A DNA stretch of 64,000 bases from Piscinibacter gummiphilus. GTDB taxonomy: Bacteria > Pseudomonadota > Gammaproteobacteria > Burkholderiales > Burkholderiaceae_C. This document shows, piece after piece, positions 3,088 to 46,744 of this stretch (its first letter is position 1; each line of letters begins with the position of its first letter). The stretch covers positions 5,381,001-5,445,000 of the forward strand of contig NZ_CP136336.1 in NCBI RefSeq assembly GCF_032681285.1, written 5' to 3'. The position numbers and the translations under genes are program-made. Under the pieces are notes generated by a model. The model had not been told where the DNA came from. It made no database searches and saw only the letters and a list, made by a program, of their open reading frames with translations.

Positions 3088-3951
3088 ATGACCCTTCTTC
3101 TACTCAGACAAACATCGGGAGCTGTGGCCGTCGCCCTTGCATTGCTCCTCGCCGCCTGCAGCTCCACGCCGACGCGCGACGGCCCCGAGGCCAAGCCGCC
3201 GGCCGGCCTCGACAAGACGCCTGACGCCCAGCCGCGGGTCGAGCCCATCCGCACCGGTGGCCCCAACAAGCCGTACACGGTGAACGGCCGCAGCTACAGC
3301 CCCGTCACCTCCGACAAGCCGATGGCCGAGAAGGGCCTCGCGTCCTGGTACGGGCGCAAGTTCCACGGCCGGCCCACGGCCAGCGGCGAGCCCTACGACA
3401 TGTATGCGATGAGCGCGGCGCACAAGACCATGCCGCTGCCGAGCTACGCCCGCGTGCGCAACCCGGCCAACGGGCGCGAGGTGATCGTGCGCGTCAACGA
3501 CCGCGGGCCCTTTCACCAGGATCGCGTGATCGACCTCAGCTACACCGCGGCCATGCGGCTGGGCGTGCTGAACGGCGTGGCGCCGGTGGAGGTGGAGCGG
3601 CTCACGCACGAGCAGATCCGAAGCGGCGCCTGGAAGGGCGGCGGTGCGGTGGAAGTGCCCGCCGCCGCGGTGGCCGAGGTGGCGGCGCGCAGCGGTGACA
3701 GCGCCGAGCCGCCCGCCCCGGGCTTCTGGGTGCAGCTGGGCGCCTTCCGCCAGCGCGACGGTGCCGAGCAGTTCCAGCGCCAGGTGGGCGCCGAGCTCGA
3801 CTGGCTGGCCCCGCTGCTGGCGGTGGTCGGCGAGCCCCAGCTCTTCCGGCTGCAGGCGGGGCCCTTCTCTTCGCGGGGCGAGGCGCAGGACGCCGCCTCG
3901 CGCATCCGCGAGGCGCTCAAGCTGGTGCCGGTGGTCGTCGAACGGCGCTGA
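3088..3951 (+). CDS. rlpA: RlpA-family septal-ring lipoprotein (SPOR-domain lytic transglycosylase)
   Basis: Outer-membrane lipoprotein of the RlpA family; characterised members cleave naked glycan strands in peptidoglycan during daughter-cell separation. The 287-residue product starts with a lipoprotein signal peptide ending in the lipobox LAAC about residues 22-25. A double-psi beta-barrel follows (ASWYGRKFHGRPTASGE near residue 90 and VNDRGPF near 137, containing the usual Asp). A C-terminal SPOR domain (FWVQLGAFRQRDGAE onward) is expected to bind denuded glycan. The start is fixed by the signal peptide and lies one base after the hsdR stop, so any private promoter must be inside hsdR. The usual rod/mre neighbours of rlpA are absent here. 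Confidence 0.93.
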   Translation: MTLLLLRQTSGAVAVALALLLAACSSTPTRDGPEAKPPAGLDKTPDAQPRVEPIRTGGPNKPYTVNGRSYSPVTSDKPMAEKGLASWYGRKFHGRPTASGEPYDMYAMSAAHKTMPLPSYARVRNPANGREVIVRVNDRGPFHQDRVIDLSYTAAMRLGVLNGVAPVEVERLTHEQIRSGAWKGGGAVEVPAAAVAEVAARSGDSAEPPAPGFWVQLGAFRQRDGAEQFQRQVGAELDWLAPLLAVVGEPQLFRLQAGPFSSRGEAQDAASRIREALKLVPVVVERR

Positions 3952-4032
3952 GTCACGGCAAATTGCACGACCGCCGAATATTGGATGGCGGCTTTGTGCG
4001 CCGCACCGTTGAAAACCTCCGCAAGCCCTCAC

Positions 4033-4056
4033 AAACCAAGGGCTTACCCGTGGTTT
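4033..4056 (+). terminator. Hairpin downstream of rlpA
   Basis: Arms AAACCA-A-GGG and CCC-G-TGGTTT enclose a CTTA loop, giving about nine pairs with one mismatch, and end in a short T run. It lies 82 bases after rlpA in a relatively AT-rich gap of 262 bases that holds no other gene. A weak intrinsic terminator is the simplest reading. Confidence 0.4.
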
Positions 4057-4213
4057 TGGGCTTCGTGTGACAAGAAGTACACGAACGAAATGAAAACCCG
4101 GAAGCGAAAGTTGGACCCCCGTGCAACATTGACTCCACCCTGAACTGTCTCAGGGCAACAAAAGGGCGGAAGCCAGAGACGCCGCCCACCCACCTCAAAT
4201 GGAGATCGTTGCC

Positions 4214-5071
4214 ATGCACTCTCGACTGATCCGCATCGCCGCCATCGCGACCGCTCTGCTGGGCACCGCAACCGCCTGGGCCGGCAACTTCACCAGCTCC
4301 TACTCGGCTGGCCTGAGCACCTACTCGATCAAGGGCACGGAGCCTGCCTCGGGCAAGCACCCGGTCTTCATCTACACGGTGGGCACCACCGAGAACTACG
4401 ACAACGCCCAGGCCATGGGCGCCGTGGCCGAGATGGCCGCCAAGGGCTTCGTCGCCGCCGCCGTGCAGTACGACAGCTCGCTCTTCGGTACCTGCTCGCA
4501 GATCCTCTCGAAGGCCCGCTACATCTACAACAGCGGCTCAACCACCAGCGCCGTCTCTAAGCTGTGCGCCCGCGCCACCGCCGACTGCAGCAAGGGCGTC
4601 GTCGTGGCCGGCTTCAGCCAGGGCTCGGTGATCGCGATCAACGCGAAGAACTACGACAGCCGCGTGCGTGCCGCCTACGGCATGGGCGCCCACACGCTGT
4701 ACACCACCTACGTGATGAACTCGTGCATGACGCCGGGCAACTACACGATCTCGAAGGACAACGTGCGCATCGTCAACGGCCAGAGCGACATCTTCCCGGG
4801 CGGCACCGCCACGGTGGTGCGCTCGTCGTCGGAGAACGTGGCCGGCCGCAGCTGCGGCGCGCTCGCCTACGAGTGCCTGGCCACCAACGGCGCCGGCTGG
4901 ATCATGATCCGCGACAGCGCCGTGGGCGACGGCTCGGCCGACCACTGCTACCAGCGTGTCGGCGGCTGCCTCGGCCTGCAGAGCACCACCGACAACACCT
5001 GGCGCAACGGCAGCACCAACTGGGGCCTGAAGGCCAACCTCACGTGGCTCAACGGCTTCGTGACGCACTGA
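4214..5071 (+). CDS. Secreted disulfide-rich alpha/beta hydrolase
   Basis: A 285-residue exported serine hydrolase. A Sec signal peptide (about residues 1-23, ending ATAWA) is followed by a core with the nucleophile elbow GFSQGS. Candidate acid and base are the Asp of NGQSDIF and the His of SADHCYQ, in the expected order. Eight cysteines lie in the mature part (for example FGTC, KLCAR, ADCSKG, DHCYQ), enough for four disulfides, which fits periplasmic or extracellular folding. I chose the ATG at 4214 because GGAG lies nine bases before it and the signal peptide then starts MHSRLIR; an ATG at 4199 would add five residues. The substrate is unknown: an ester or polyester is plausible. The next gene resembles a lipase foldase. 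Confidence 0.75.
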   Translation: MHSRLIRIAAIATALLGTATAWAGNFTSSYSAGLSTYSIKGTEPASGKHPVFIYTVGTTENYDNAQAMGAVAEMAAKGFVAAAVQYDSSLFGTCSQILSKARYIYNSGSTTSAVSKLCARATADCSKGVVVAGFSQGSVIAINAKNYDSRVRAAYGMGAHTLYTTYVMNSCMTPGNYTISKDNVRIVNGQSDIFPGGTATVVRSSSENVAGRSCGALAYECLATNGAGWIMIRDSAVGDGSADHCYQRVGGCLGLQSTTDNTWRNGSTNWGLKANLTWLNGFVTH

Positions 5072-14355: not shown

Positions 14356-14835
14356 ATGAAGTCCACCCGTCTCGCCCCCGCCCTGGCCGCCGCCGCTGCC
14401 CTTGCCCTCGGCAGCGCCGCGCTGCCCGTCTTCGCCAGCTCGACCGCCGCGTCGTCGGCCTCCGAAGGGGTTTCCGCCTCGGTCGGCAGCGTGTCCACCT
14501 CGTTCGAGAAGTCGAGCGATGGTTCGTCGAAGAAAGACAAGACCGCCGCCGGCGACTACAAGGTGACCGAGGTCGCCGAAGTGGCCGAGCGCCCCGGCAC
14601 CGTGCGCCTGACGCTCGCCCCCGTGGCCGCCGATGCCAAGGCCGATGACAGCTTCATGCTTTACGTGCCGGCCCAGGTCGTCGCGCGCGACCCGGTTGCC
14701 GCCGGCCAGGTGATCACCGCCAAACAACGCGTCTATGGCGTCGAGTTCACCAAGGCCGACACCGGCCGTGCCTTCTTCCTCGTGATGCATGACGCCTGGC
14801 ACCGCGAGCTGCAGTCCACCGCCGTCACGCTTTGA
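14356..14835 (+). CDS. Small exported protein, upstream partner of DUF2145 (copy 1)
   Basis: A 159-residue protein of no family I recognise. It has a signal peptide (residues about 1-25, ending PVFAS) and a Ser-rich stretch to about residue 65. A compact domain follows, with TEVAEVAERPGTVRLTLAPV and VAAGQVITAKQRVYGVEF, ending VMHDAWHRELQSTAVTL. The ATG at 14356 starts the signal peptide. Its TGA overlaps the next gene's TTG as TTGA, indicating coupling. The C-terminal pattern (V-x-x-G-x-V-x-T, then G, then A-x-x-G-x-A, then L) recurs in the protein encoded at 41500-41925, which also precedes a DUF2145 gene. The two therefore look like distant relatives. Confidence 0.75.
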   Translation: MKSTRLAPALAAAAALALGSAALPVFASSTAASSASEGVSASVGSVSTSFEKSSDGSSKKDKTAAGDYKVTEVAEVAERPGTVRLTLAPVAADAKADDSFMLYVPAQVVARDPVAAGQVITAKQRVYGVEFTKADTGRAFFLVMHDAWHRELQSTAVTL

Positions 14836-15737
14836 TTTCACGCTGGGTCGCGCGGGCAGCGGTGCTGCTCGCGCTGTGCGGCGCCGTGTTCGCCGCCCAA
14901 GCAAGCAGCTACCGGTTCTGCGACAAGCCGCTCGACCTCGACGCCGCCCAGAAAGACCGCCTCTTCCGCCTGGGCGGTGTCATCAAGACCGCCCTTGAGG
15001 AGCACGCCGCAGGCGGTGTGGCGCTGATGTCGCGCTCGGGGCTCGACCTCGCTCGCTTCGGCCACCGCTACTCGCATGCCGGGGTGAGCTTGAAGGCCAA
15101 CACCGACATTCCCTGGGCGGTGCGCCAGCTCTACTACGCCTGCGACGAAGGGCGGCCGCGCCTCTACGACCAGGGCATCTCCGGGTTCCTGCTCGGCACC
15201 GAAGACCCGAAAGAAGGCTACGTCTCGATCGTCTTCCTGCCCGAGGCGGATGCGCGCCGGCTGGAGGCCGCTGCGCTCGACAAGCACGGCGCCCTCTCGC
15301 TGCTGGCCGGGGTCTACAGCGCCAACGCATTCGCCTTCAGCGACCAGTACCAGAACTGCAACCAGTGGGTGGCCGAGTTGCTGGCCGGCGCCTGGTCAGA
15401 CACGCCCATCGGCTCACGCCGCGAGGCGCAGCAGTGGCTCGCGCAGCACGACTACCAGCCGAGCCGCTTCGACATCCACCACCGCTGGATGCTCTCGCTC
15501 GCGATGGTGTTCGTGCCCTGGCTGCACCGTGACGATCACCCGATCGACGACCTCCGCGAGGCGAGCCTGCGCATCAGCATGCCGGTGGCCATCGAAGCCT
15601 TCGTGCGCCAGCAGGTGCCGGGCGCGACGCGCATGGAGTTCTGCCACAACGAGCGGCACATGGTCGTGCGCCGTGGGTGGGAGCCCATCGCCGAAGGCTG
15701 CACGCCCGGCGACGGGGACACGGTGGTCCCCTACTGA
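14832..15737 (+). CDS. DUF2145 protein, copy 1 (possible permuted papain-like enzyme, Cys intact)
   Basis: A 301-residue exported protein with a signal peptide to about residue 25. Conserved family elements are SRSGLDLARFGHRYSHAG (His82), YDQGISGFL, DQYQNCNQWVAELLA (Cys176), EAQQWLAQHDYQPSRF and a DDHP motif. The order His in a Ser-His-x-Gly strand, then Cys opening a helix, resembles circularly permuted NlpC/P60 (YiiX-type) papain-like enzymes; that is inference, not an established assignment. A C-terminal extension with two more cysteines (MEFCHNERH, EGCTPGDG) is absent from the copy at 41922. The start is TTG overlapping the upstream stop; no better start precedes the signal peptide. Confidence 0.82.
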   Translation: MISRWVARAAVLLALCGAVFAAQASSYRFCDKPLDLDAAQKDRLFRLGGVIKTALEEHAAGGVALMSRSGLDLARFGHRYSHAGVSLKANTDIPWAVRQLYYACDEGRPRLYDQGISGFLLGTEDPKEGYVSIVFLPEADARRLEAAALDKHGALSLLAGVYSANAFAFSDQYQNCNQWVAELLAGAWSDTPIGSRREAQQWLAQHDYQPSRFDIHHRWMLSLAMVFVPWLHRDDHPIDDLREASLRISMPVAIEAFVRQQVPGATRMEFCHNERHMVVRRGWEPIAEGCTPGDGDTVVPY

Positions 15738-41044: not shown

Positions 41045-41503
41045 ATGCACACCCCCGCCGCCCCCCGCCCCGACACCAAGGCCTGGAAGCTCCAGGTGTG
41101 GGTCTCGTTCGGCATCGCCGCCACGCTGTGCGGCACGGGCCTCGCCTACCTGCCCGGCGCCGACCTCGACCGCGCGTTCATGGTGATGGGCTACGTGTTC
41201 TGCCTGTCCACCGCCTTCGCGCTCGCCAAGTACGTGCGTGACAACGAAGGCCGCCGCGTCGACACGCCGATGTGGGGCAGCGTGGTCTGGGGCGGCTTCG
41301 CGCTCGCGATGGCGCTCACCGGCTGGGGCCTCTACCGCATGGAGATCAACCCGACCTACAAGGCCTACCTCGGCGTGTGCTGGCTGTTCCTGATCTCGAG
41401 CGTGTTCACGCTGGCCAAGACGCTGCGCGACGCGCACGAGGTGCTGATCGCCCAGGCCCGCCGCGGCGGCATGGCGATGCGCGGCGCACGGGACACCGAA
41501 TGA
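41045..41503 (+). CDS. yiaA: YiaA/YiaB-type inner-membrane protein
   Basis: A 152-residue protein with four predicted helices arranged as two YiaAB two-helix units: WVSFGIAATLCGTGLAYLPG with GYVFCLSTAFALAKYVRD, then VVWGGFALAMALTGWGLYRM with LGVCWLFLISSVFTLAKTLRD. The KYVRD and KTLRD repeat is the family sign. GAGG lies just before the ATG. The stop overlaps the next gene's ATG as ATGA, so it leads the run that contains DUF2145 copy 2. Function in any organism is unknown. Confidence 0.88.
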   Translation: MHTPAAPRPDTKAWKLQVWVSFGIAATLCGTGLAYLPGADLDRAFMVMGYVFCLSTAFALAKYVRDNEGRRVDTPMWGSVVWGGFALAMALTGWGLYRMEINPTYKAYLGVCWLFLISSVFTLAKTLRDAHEVLIAQARRGGMAMRGARDTE

Positions 41504-41925
41504 GACGCCAGACCATGAAACGACTCGTCCTGCCCCTGCTGCTCTCGGCCCTGCTCGCGGTGAACCCCGCACGGGCCCACCCGCCCAACGCGTCGGATGC
41601 GAGCGCCTTGTCGATGCTGCCGATCGCGGTGTCGGTTGCCGCGCCGGCCGTGCTGCTGTCGGCCGGCGCGATGCTCACCGTCGTCGCCGTCGAAGCCTCG
41701 GCCGCTGGCGTGGTGTGCATCCTGGAGCGTGCGTCAGACGGCGCACGGGCCAGCGTCACACTCAGCACGCAAGGCGCGGCGGCCTTGTCGGTCGGCGTCG
41801 GCACGGTGGTCACCGTGAGCGCCTTCAGTGCCGGCTGGGTGCTCTCGGCCGCCGGCCGCGCCATCGCCTACATCCCCAACGAGATCGGCGCGGCGCTGCT
41901 CTACAACGAGCGGGTGACACGATGA
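41500..41925 (+). CDS. Small exported protein, upstream partner of DUF2145 (copy 2)
   Basis: A 141-residue protein; starting at 41515 instead would remove five residues. A signal peptide (KRLVLPLLLSALLAVNPARA) is followed by an Ala/Ser/Val-rich domain: SVAAPAVLLSAGAMLTVVAV, EASAAGVVCILERASDGARA, VGVGTVVTVSAFSAGWVL and a conserved-looking AIAYIPNEIGAALLYNERV. It overlaps yiaA before it and DUF2145 after it, each by ATGA. The C-terminal pattern matches that of the protein encoded at 14356-14835. The hydrophobic content suggests membrane association after export. Confidence 0.75.
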   Translation: MRRQTMKRLVLPLLLSALLAVNPARAHPPNASDASALSMLPIAVSVAAPAVLLSAGAMLTVVAVEASAAGVVCILERASDGARASVTLSTQGAAALSVGVGTVVTVSAFSAGWVLSAAGRAIAYIPNEIGAALLYNERVTR

Positions 41926-42695
41926 GCCGGAGATGGGCTACCGCCCTGGTGCTGTCGGCACTCACCACCCTCGCCCACGCCGGCCGCACCTGCGAGCCCA
42001 AGCCGCCCGAGGCGCGCAACATCGAGCGGGCGATGGTGCTCGCCGAGCGCACCGCGCGTGCGCTCGATGCCAGCGGCGCGCAGGTGGTGGTGCTGGCCCG
42101 CGCCGGGCAGGACCTGAGCGAGTACGGCCTGCGCTACTCGCACCTGGGCCTCGCCTACCGCGACAGCGGCAAGTGGCGCGTGGCCCACAAGCTCAACCAG
42201 TGCGGCACCGCGCACGCGGCCGTCTACCGCCAAGGCCTGGGCGAGTTCTTCCTCGACGACCTGCACGACTTCCAGGCCGGCGTGGTGGTGCTGCGCGCCG
42301 ACGTGCAGGCCCGCCTGCTGCCCGTGCTGCGCGACAACCCGCGCCTCGCGCAGCTGCACACCGAGCGCTACAACATGGTCGCCTACCCGTGGGCGCAGCG
42401 GTACCAGCAGTCGAACCAGTGGGCCATCGAGACGCTGGCGATGGCGATGGACCCGGGCGCGGTGACCCGTGAGCGGGCCCAGGTCTGGCTGCAGCGCGAG
42501 GGCTACCAGCCGACCACGCTGCGCCTCTCGCCCTTCAAGCGCCTGGGCGCACGGGTGACGGCGGCCAACGTCGCCTTCGACGACCACCCCGACGAGAAAC
42601 GCTTCCGCGACCGCATCGAGACCGTGACGGTCGACTCGGTGTTCTCGTGGCTCGTGAGAACTGGCATGGGAAACCCCGTGCAAGTCATGCGCTGA
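41922..42695 (+). CDS. DUF2145 protein, copy 2 (Cys replaced by Ser)
   Basis: A 257-residue exported paralogue of the protein encoded at 14832. It shows the signal peptide (ATALVLSALTTLAHA), ARAGQDLSEYGLRYSHLGLA (His74), VYRQGLGEFF, AYPWAQRYQQSNQWAIETLA, RAQVWLQREGYQP and DDHP. At the position of the first copy's Cys176 it has Ser164 (QSNQW instead of NCNQW). It also lacks the Cys-containing C-terminal extension. If the family is a thiol enzyme, this copy is inactive or works differently. It is third in the yiaA run. Confidence 0.83.
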   Translation: MSRRWATALVLSALTTLAHAGRTCEPKPPEARNIERAMVLAERTARALDASGAQVVVLARAGQDLSEYGLRYSHLGLAYRDSGKWRVAHKLNQCGTAHAAVYRQGLGEFFLDDLHDFQAGVVVLRADVQARLLPVLRDNPRLAQLHTERYNMVAYPWAQRYQQSNQWAIETLAMAMDPGAVTRERAQVWLQREGYQPTTLRLSPFKRLGARVTAANVAFDDHPDEKRFRDRIETVTVDSVFSWLVRTGMGNPVQVMR

Positions 42696-42726: not shown

Positions 42727-43419
42727 ATGTCTGTCGTCCGCTCCCCTTTCTTCATCGCCACCACCGCGTCGGCACTGGTGCTCGGCGCCGCCGCGCTGAT
42801 GGCGCGCCCCGCACCCACCGAGTCTCCGCTTGCCCGCCTGAAAGACGCCTGCGCCTCGAAAGACGTCACCCTGCGTGGCGAGCCACACCGCCTGCTGGCG
42901 ATGTGCACCCGCAGCGCCCGCGAGTCGGCCCCCAACGACCCCGGCCGCATCGACCTCTACCTGCTCAAGCGCGATGCCGAAGGCTGGCAGCCGGTCGCGC
43001 AGCAGCTGGGCCTGGAAAGCGGTCAGATGGGCCGGCCCGGCGAGGTCAACGTGCTGCAGCTCGGCGCGAACCTCTACGGCTTCGAGATCAGCGAAACCTC
43101 GGTGAGCCAGGGTTACCTGCTGGGCGGCACCCGCCTGTATGTGCCGCGCGAGGCGGGCTTCCAGGTCGCGCTCGACATCACCTCCACCGTGCGCAACACC
43201 GGCACCCACGAGTGCGCCCATGCCACGCCCGCGGTGTGCAGCGATTTCTCGCGCCGCCTGAAGCTCGAGGTACGCGAGGGCGCGGCGGCCTACCCGCTGC
43301 GCATCACGAGCCTTGGCCATTTCCGCGGCGCGCCGGTGTCGGCCACGCACGTGCTGAGCTTCGATGCCAAACGCGCGCAGTACAAGCTGCCGGCCGGCTT
43401 CGAAGCGCAAGTCGAATAA
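42727..43419 (+). CDS. Exported protein of unknown function (230 aa)
   Basis: No family recognised. The N-terminus has a hydrophobic signal segment (FFIATTASALVLGAAALMA). The mature part has four cysteines (KDACASK, AMCTRS, HECAHA, AVCSDF), a stretch RIDLYLLKRDAEGWQPVAQQ, and a beta-rich second half (GANLYGFEISETSVSQGYLL). The layout is that of a periplasmic beta-sandwich protein. It lies 31 bases after DUF2145 copy 2, reads the same way, and may belong to the same transcript. Confidence 0.7.
   Translation: MSVVRSPFFIATTASALVLGAAALMARPAPTESPLARLKDACASKDVTLRGEPHRLLAMCTRSARESAPNDPGRIDLYLLKRDAEGWQPVAQQLGLESGQMGRPGEVNVLQLGANLYGFEISETSVSQGYLLGGTRLYVPREAGFQVALDITSTVRNTGTHECAHATPAVCSDFSRRLKLEVREGAAAYPLRITSLGHFRGAPVSATHVLSFDAKRAQYKLPAGFEAQVE

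Positions 43420-43437: not shown

Positions 43438-46744
<3,307 letters not shown>

Follow-up and report, generated by a model that had tools for sequence, protein, structure and literature searches.

Small signal-peptide proteins and DUF2145 proteins as type-matched gene pairs: two modules of Piscinibacter gummiphilus with predicted cysteine and serine active sites

Why does a gene for a small signal-peptide protein precede a DUF2145 gene, overlapping it by four bases, at two places in a 64,000-nucleotide stretch of the Piscinibacter gummiphilus genome (contig NZ_CP136336.1, positions 5,381,001 to 5,445,000; hereafter the window)? The two modules lie 27 kb apart, both on the plus strand, and in each the small gene ends on the same four bases with which the DUF2145 gene begins. 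Copy 1 comprises a 159-residue partner (14356..14835; assigned from its open reading frame (ORF), homology to C-type partners, and an AlphaFold model) and a 301-residue Cys-type DUF2145 protein with a TTG start, predicted to be exported and papain-like (14832..15737; Pfam, model, and residue class), which share the bases TTGA (14832..14835). Copy 2 comprises a 141-residue S-type partner (41500..41925, with a possible alternative internal start at 41515) and a 257-residue Ser-type DUF2145 protein with an ATG start (41922..42695; Pfam and residue class), which share ATGA (41922..41925). These positions confirm a preliminary description of the sequence, which held that conserved overlap plus duplication points to an obligate exported pair, not chance neighbors. 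We consider it probable that each module is a two-protein exported system, in which an acyl-hydrolase or acyltransferase is joined by a dedicated binding partner that holds or positions it.

Both larger proteins are clear members of Pfam DUF2145 (PF09916; copy 1, E = 1.2e-47 and 162.5 bits; copy 2, E = 1e-83 and 280.3 bits; curated cut-off, 25 bits), and a whole-genome search with PF09916 found no others in this genome. An alignment of the two, covering 236 positions, shows 30% identity. The small proteins both fall short of every Pfam cut-off. Read by eye, the N-termini of all four proteins have a basic and then a hydrophobic stretch resembling a signal peptide, followed by a cleavage-like A-x-A site in three of them and V-x-A in the copy 1 partner.

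To ask how strictly the two genes are linked, we collected DUF2145 with PF09916 from three overlapping samples, of the order (54 of 399 genomes positive), the phylum (39 of 398), and the window's family (87 of 150). The fetched loci, which cover most but not all of the matches, number 170 with 170 distinct matches; 167 cover more than 60% of the DUF2145 profile built here and were kept, after the short fragments L061-L063 were dropped. Outside the 167, not having been fetched as loci, are 22 Ser-type matches from the family sample, included in the family count below, and three from the other samples (G210, G539, and G755). Partner ORFs were recognized by profiles of the partners. Tabulating the genes upstream of DUF2145, as the preliminary description had proposed, we found a same-strand partner for 154 of the 167: 78/84 Ser-type, 52/52 Cys-type, and 24/31 T-type (Cys-His-Asn) genes. 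The partner lies at most 30 bases from the enzyme start in 126 of the 154, which include one locus with an intervening gene (L170), one with the partner about 390 bases away (L166), and one counted as paired despite a short partner frame and no assigned enzyme start (L038). In L170 the intervening gene is, by eye, like a sterol desaturase or fatty acid hydroxylase. The overlap, described earlier as conserved, is frequent but not universal: it occurs in 31/78 S-type, 22/52 C-type, and 1/24 T-type pairs, and these are upper figures because the start giving an overlap was preferred when several fitted (for the C-type, TTG or GTG is the start in 21 of the 22).

The family sample gives the same picture from both directions. 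After removal of a 35-residue fragment (G893), 104 of its 109 DUF2145 matches have a same-strand upstream partner, and the partner profile matches in 82 genomes, every one among the 87 that carry DUF2145; in the 63 genomes lacking DUF2145 it has no match at E 1e-3 among the best candidates scored (at most 26 per genome). Five matches lack a partner: G843, which lies at a contig start, the relic G350, two with caspase neighbors (G825 and G791), and a T-type gene (G840) with a partner family outside the coverage of this profile. Two partner matches do not adjoin DUF2145, one being at a contig end and one weak (1.1e-4). In a Cys-type set of 80 named loci plus the window, a partner is present in all 79 loci with upstream room, L187 and L189 being cut by contig ends; 75 of these pairs were found by script and four (L190, L192, L205, and L210) were read from the listed matches, the script having taken a nearby Ser-type gene. 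Each of those four loci contains both a Ser-type and a Cys-type DUF2145 gene, about 5 kb apart at most.

The pairing is also specific. By best profile, enzyme and partner types agree in 78/78, 52/52, and 24/24 pairs. Because the partner profiles were built from the same classes, a later class sample (11 of 274 genomes positive), scored with profiles built beforehand, is the cleaner test; all five of its new complete DUF2145 genes have a partner of the matching type, and a partial gene (L314) has none. The evidence thus supports a non-chance, near-strict, type-specific pairing in which each enzyme type has its own cognate partner type.

The word obligate in the preliminary description is too strong for the few genes without an upstream partner, 13 of the 167, four of which have a homolog downstream. 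In those four (L065-L068, one family) the gene order is swapped; the downstream homolog overlaps DUF2145 by four bases in L068 and lies 555 or 556 bases away in L065-L067, where an extra exported partner-like ORF, seen by eye, stands between, apparently two in tandem. In L113 and L114 (two genomes) an exported gene that looks caspase-like by eye takes the place of the partner, with a four-base overlap with a Ser-type DUF2145 gene. Three more (L047, L049, and L051) are tandem second copies whose sister copy in the same locus has a partner, no partner was found in the loci of L080, L136, and L165, and the last, L060, is discussed below. DUF2145 relics in which the C-terminal part alone remains occur in L168, L169, L063, and L314; the family-sample genome with such a relic (G350, L168) likewise has no partner match.

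The presence of two modules in one genome had been taken as a duplication. We built a tree from 80 of the 167 genes by a quick method, with the triad, motif, and disulfide columns blanked; in it the C-type (26 rows) and T-type (20 rows) genes each fall on one side of a branch with SH-aLRT support of 100, and a single clade of S-type genes (34 rows) is not rejected (p = 0.52). The 87 positive family genomes comprise 43 with S-type only, 20 with C-type only, 22 with both, one with T-type, and one with a relic, classed by bit score where the locus was not fetched; G821 was moved from S to C, its locus (L153) being C-type. As the tree separates the types and both recur across genera, we reject a recent duplication in this genome. 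Judged from these sequence comparisons, the two copies are products of an ancient split into subfamilies, each present in many genera, and the pairing is old.

The earlier suggestion that the partners diverged faster than the enzymes is right in direction, but within a subfamily the difference is slight: median identity to the window, partner versus enzyme, is 46% versus 51% for C-type and 49% versus 58% for S-type. Against distant relatives (~50% identity) the dN/dS of the window's C-type partner is 0.81 and 0.92. These high values are a weak result and are not taken as relaxed selection, since close partner pairs give 0.12 to 0.14 (three C-type) and 0.11 to 0.34 (nine S-type).

What separates the types is the predicted active site. 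The motifs noted earlier as shared (RYSHxG, YQxxNQW, and DDHP) are real, with the xx of the second concealing the predicted nucleophile, YQNCNQW in copy 1 and YQQSNQW in copy 2. In copy 1 the predicted triad is His82 (15075..15077), Gln99 (15126..15128), and Cys176 (15357..15359), which opens helix 176-188 of the model; in copy 2 it is His74 (42141..42143), His89 (42186..42188), and Ser164 (42411..42413), a serine where copy 1 has the cysteine nucleophile. Tyr162 of copy 1 (15315..15317) and Tyr150 of copy 2 (42369..42371) occupy a conserved position, which may be equivalent to the signature tyrosine of permuted enzymes, a feature described in the available part of PMC3142127. All of these codons are on the plus strand. 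Across the 167 genes the nucleophile column holds 84 Ser, 82 Cys, and one Asp, and the third triad residue tracks it: Ser occurs with His in 84/84 genes, Cys with Gln in 51 and Glu in one of 52, and Cys with Asn in 30/30. One gene apart, the set thus sorts cleanly into Ser-His-His (84, including copy 2), Cys-His-Gln/Glu (52, including copy 1), and Cys-His-Asn (30) types, and copy 1 seems to rely on cysteine chemistry at its active site where copy 2 relies on serine. The triad His is kept in all genes but L060 and L152 (a gap in L152), and the Tyr in 166 of 167, the exception again being L060. Two further cysteines are common to 134 of 136 Ser-type and Cys-type proteins, which fits a disulfide, as expected of proteins that are exported; beyond residue 30, the T-type proteins have a single cysteine (24/24 with a start assigned). 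The copy 1 enzyme is modeled with a pLDDT of 95, and among solved folds the type VI effector TseH comes closest; sequence searches for solved relatives of DUF2145 returned none that was meaningful. In residue order and predicted fold, the enzymes resemble permuted papain-like (LRAT/YiiX/TseH) enzymes.

L060 (G190, minus strand, 3724-4657 in strand coordinates) is a natural inactive DUF2145 copy in which Asp stands at the nucleophile position and Gln replaces the His, Ala the third residue, and Phe the Tyr; no partner was found for it. That four residues far apart in sequence were lost jointly is good evidence that they work together, although this is a single case. It also bears on the possibility that Ser-type proteins such as copy 2 are pseudo-enzymes that bind without catalysis, the Cys types alone being active. 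Replacement of Cys by Ser usually disables papain-like enzymes, which favors that explanation. So does the available text of PMC10318531, where the pocket of a DUF2145 model is described as rather positively charged and activity is called speculative. However, Ser-type proteins retain the third-residue His (84/84), the Tyr (84/84), and the first His (83/84, with one gap), while the clearly dead L060 lost all four positions together, and the third residue changes with the nucleophile, as retuned chemistry would predict. We therefore regard a non-catalytic copy 2 as rather unlikely.

The small proteins of the two copies show no similarity by direct BLAST (E = 1.7), but the faint C-terminal pattern noticed earlier proves by profile search to reflect true homology. 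The S-type profile matches 34 of 52 C-type partners at E < 1e-3 (best, 4.6e-12) and the C-type profile matches 7 of 78 S-type partners (best, 7.3e-7). With the first 40 residues removed to rule out a signal-peptide artifact, the figures are 9/52 (best, 2.8e-7) and 3/78 (best, 8.8e-6), and the window's own C-type partner scores only 0.0083. Profile-profile comparison of the barrel regions gives E values of 1.2e-5 and 1.4e-5 (probability, ~80%), and a single alignment spans both types. By these profile comparisons S-type and C-type partners are homologous, with a signal peptide, a Ser/Ala-rich segment, and a predicted small beta-barrel; T-type partners have no relation to either that the profiles detect. 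In the copy 1 partner a conserved Ser-rich segment (residues ~27-60), modeled at low confidence, precedes a confident six-strand barrel (~61-150).

Matches of the partners to known families are few. Among 67 partners, Pfam finds TOBE_3 in three, DUF7765 in one (8.9e-9), and two weak single matches. A partner profile searched against solved structures gives weak matches to the Cdc48 double-psi barrel and like designs (best E, 0.054). A protein database search with the partner alignment, which scored the best 7996 candidates (most shared words), returned 126 proteins, and among the 120 listed none has a Pfam domain and the names are "hypothetical protein" or empty. The window proteins have no match in a defense library and one weak match in a phage library, between a virion protein and the copy 1 partner (E = 0.021).

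The Ser-rich segment raises the possibility that the partner is the substrate of DUF2145, which would process or modify it, for example by cutting or acylating this segment. In its favor, each enzyme gene comes with one partner gene, and in C-type partners the segment is better conserved than the barrel (mean, 0.63 versus 0.54) despite its low model confidence. The same combination suggests instead that the C-type segment may fold upon binding. In S-type partners the segment is not better conserved (0.53 versus 0.56), it differs between types, which also suits docking, and no cleavage motif common to the three types was seen by eye, making a substrate role improbable.

We return to the proposed two-protein exported system, whose observed basis is the linkage, the cognate pairing, the export-type N-termini, the three residue triads, and the fold resemblance of the predicted models. 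Several permuted papain-like (LRAT/YiiX/TseH) enzymes act on lipids, and we infer for the module catalysis, an acyl or lipid substrate, physical binding, and a controlling role of the partner. Acting on envelope lipids or on lipid-modified proteins, the DUF2145 enzyme would cleave or transfer an acyl group via an acyl-enzyme. The small protein, exported in parallel, would bind the enzyme through the Ser/Ala-rich segment and the small beta-barrel, keeping it inactive or positioning it until substrate is met, with Ser-His-His, Cys-His-Gln, and Cys-His-Asn enzymes each served by their own cognate partner type. A more tentative extension is that one exported papain-fold family switched between Cys and Ser with a matched third residue (Gln, Asn, or His), each form locked to a coevolved binder as a regulated envelope acyl-hydrolase or acyltransferase.

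Binding is the step at issue if the two proteins are merely co-regulated, both being exported envelope proteins of one process that never touch. Linkage by itself is no proof of binding, and the swapped order in L065-L068 and the inserted gene in L170 would be readily accommodated. Yet the complete type matching, and the absence of the partner from the 63 family genomes without the enzyme, exceed what shared regulation usually gives, and we hold this explanation to be of low probability.

Neighboring genes differ between the two kinds of module. A gene for a YiaA/YiaB-domain membrane protein (PF05360; 41045..41503, plus strand) overlaps the start of the copy 2 partner by four bases, so that yiaAB, partner, and DUF2145 are chained by two successive four-base overlaps (41045-42695). 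Among 40 chosen S-type loci plus the window, such a gene precedes the module in 24 of 41, in two families. Downstream of copy 2, Pfam identifies a major facilitator superfamily (MFS) transporter fused to a PlsC-type acyltransferase (43438..45363, plus strand), presumably LplT-Aas-like; this fusion is near the module on the same strand in 17 of the 41 loci, 16 of them from one family. In the window a 230-residue protein with no Pfam family at E 0.001 lies between (42727-43416). Near C-type modules, no neighbor other than the partner is shared by more than 9 of 81 loci in a clustering of ORFs of at least 110 residues, many of the contigs being short. In L303, a Mitsuaria plasmid, a lipid-related glycerophosphodiester phosphodiesterase gene follows the Cys-type pair.

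A relative of the module occurs in Salmonella. In a Salmonella enterica record (L305), a gene of the STM0539 family (NCBIfam NF033820; 199.1 bits against a cut-off of 50) encodes a signal-peptide protein and overlaps a Ser-type DUF2145 gene, probably STM0540 as inferred from gene order, by four bases. The S-type partner profile without its N-terminal 40 columns matches the Salmonella protein at 8.2e-8, and with the C-type profile it goes undetected (0.22); on this profile evidence the STM0539 family is a relative of the partners. Unlike it, the window partners do not match NF033820, having no NCBIfam match up to E 1. No NF033820 match above the cut-off, and two weak ones, occur in the 274 class genomes, and a distant DNA search of Escherichia coli genomes with the Salmonella pair gave no match. 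Although labeled a plasmid, L305 is probably part of a chromosome, since folD, cysS, ppiB, lpxH, and purEK surround the pair. The available part of PMC2784778 counts these Salmonella genes among those showing signs of recombination, COG4727 also occurs in a root-microbiome paper, and in PMC13129497, seen in part, the STM0539 family is entered, with function unknown, in a table of type VI-related Morganella genes; no function for STM0539 was found in the literature searched. That table, the TseH fold, and the tight two-gene linkage might suggest a toxin/immunity pair, with DUF2145 as an envelope toxin and the small protein as its antidote, like type VI modules with permuted NlpC/P60 domains, but this is very improbable given that both proteins have export-type N-termini, that the same types occur across many genera, that the partner is under purifying selection in 12 close pairs, and that no flanking gene, secretion or other, recurs more often among the Cys-type loci than stated above (no locus-by-locus search for secretion genes was made).

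With a two-protein exported system as the preferred reading, an unnamed domain and its unnamed small neighbors become a defined, testable unit in many Burkholderiales and one Salmonella record. As far as the literature searched shows, what is new here is the three-way triad, together with the partner family and its near-strict, type-specific link to DUF2145. Ser-His-His, Cys-His-Gln, and Cys-His-Asn sites on one predicted fold offer a natural comparison, with a dead copy as control, and, if the reading is correct, a natural series showing how a cysteine enzyme turns into a serine enzyme.

Among known systems, the partner likely has a small beta-barrel similar to those of OB-fold proteins such as TOBE, molbindin, PmrD, and arcadin-1; its structural matches are OB-like but weak, and it differs from these in being exported and in having no identified ligand-binding motif. 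The DUF2145 model finds its best structural matches among permuted papain-like enzymes, with which it shares a His and a polar residue ahead of the nucleophile, a conserved Tyr, and a Cys opening a helix. Unlike them, the window proteins lack, by eye, a GD motif, in place of which DUF2145 has a nearly invariant Arg-x-Gly nearby; further differences are two additional conserved cysteines, a Ser nucleophile in half of the sampled genes, and a partner gene nearly always attached. Finally, the one paper found on DUF2145 (PMC10318531), in its available text, presents PF09916 as a papain-like family with a conserved serine replacing the cysteine. Both window enzymes are members, with the predicted papain-like fold and active site, but the present sample adds cysteine forms to that account: Cys stands at the nucleophile in 82 of 167 genes, in two subfamilies that differ in the third residue, each with a cognate exported partner.
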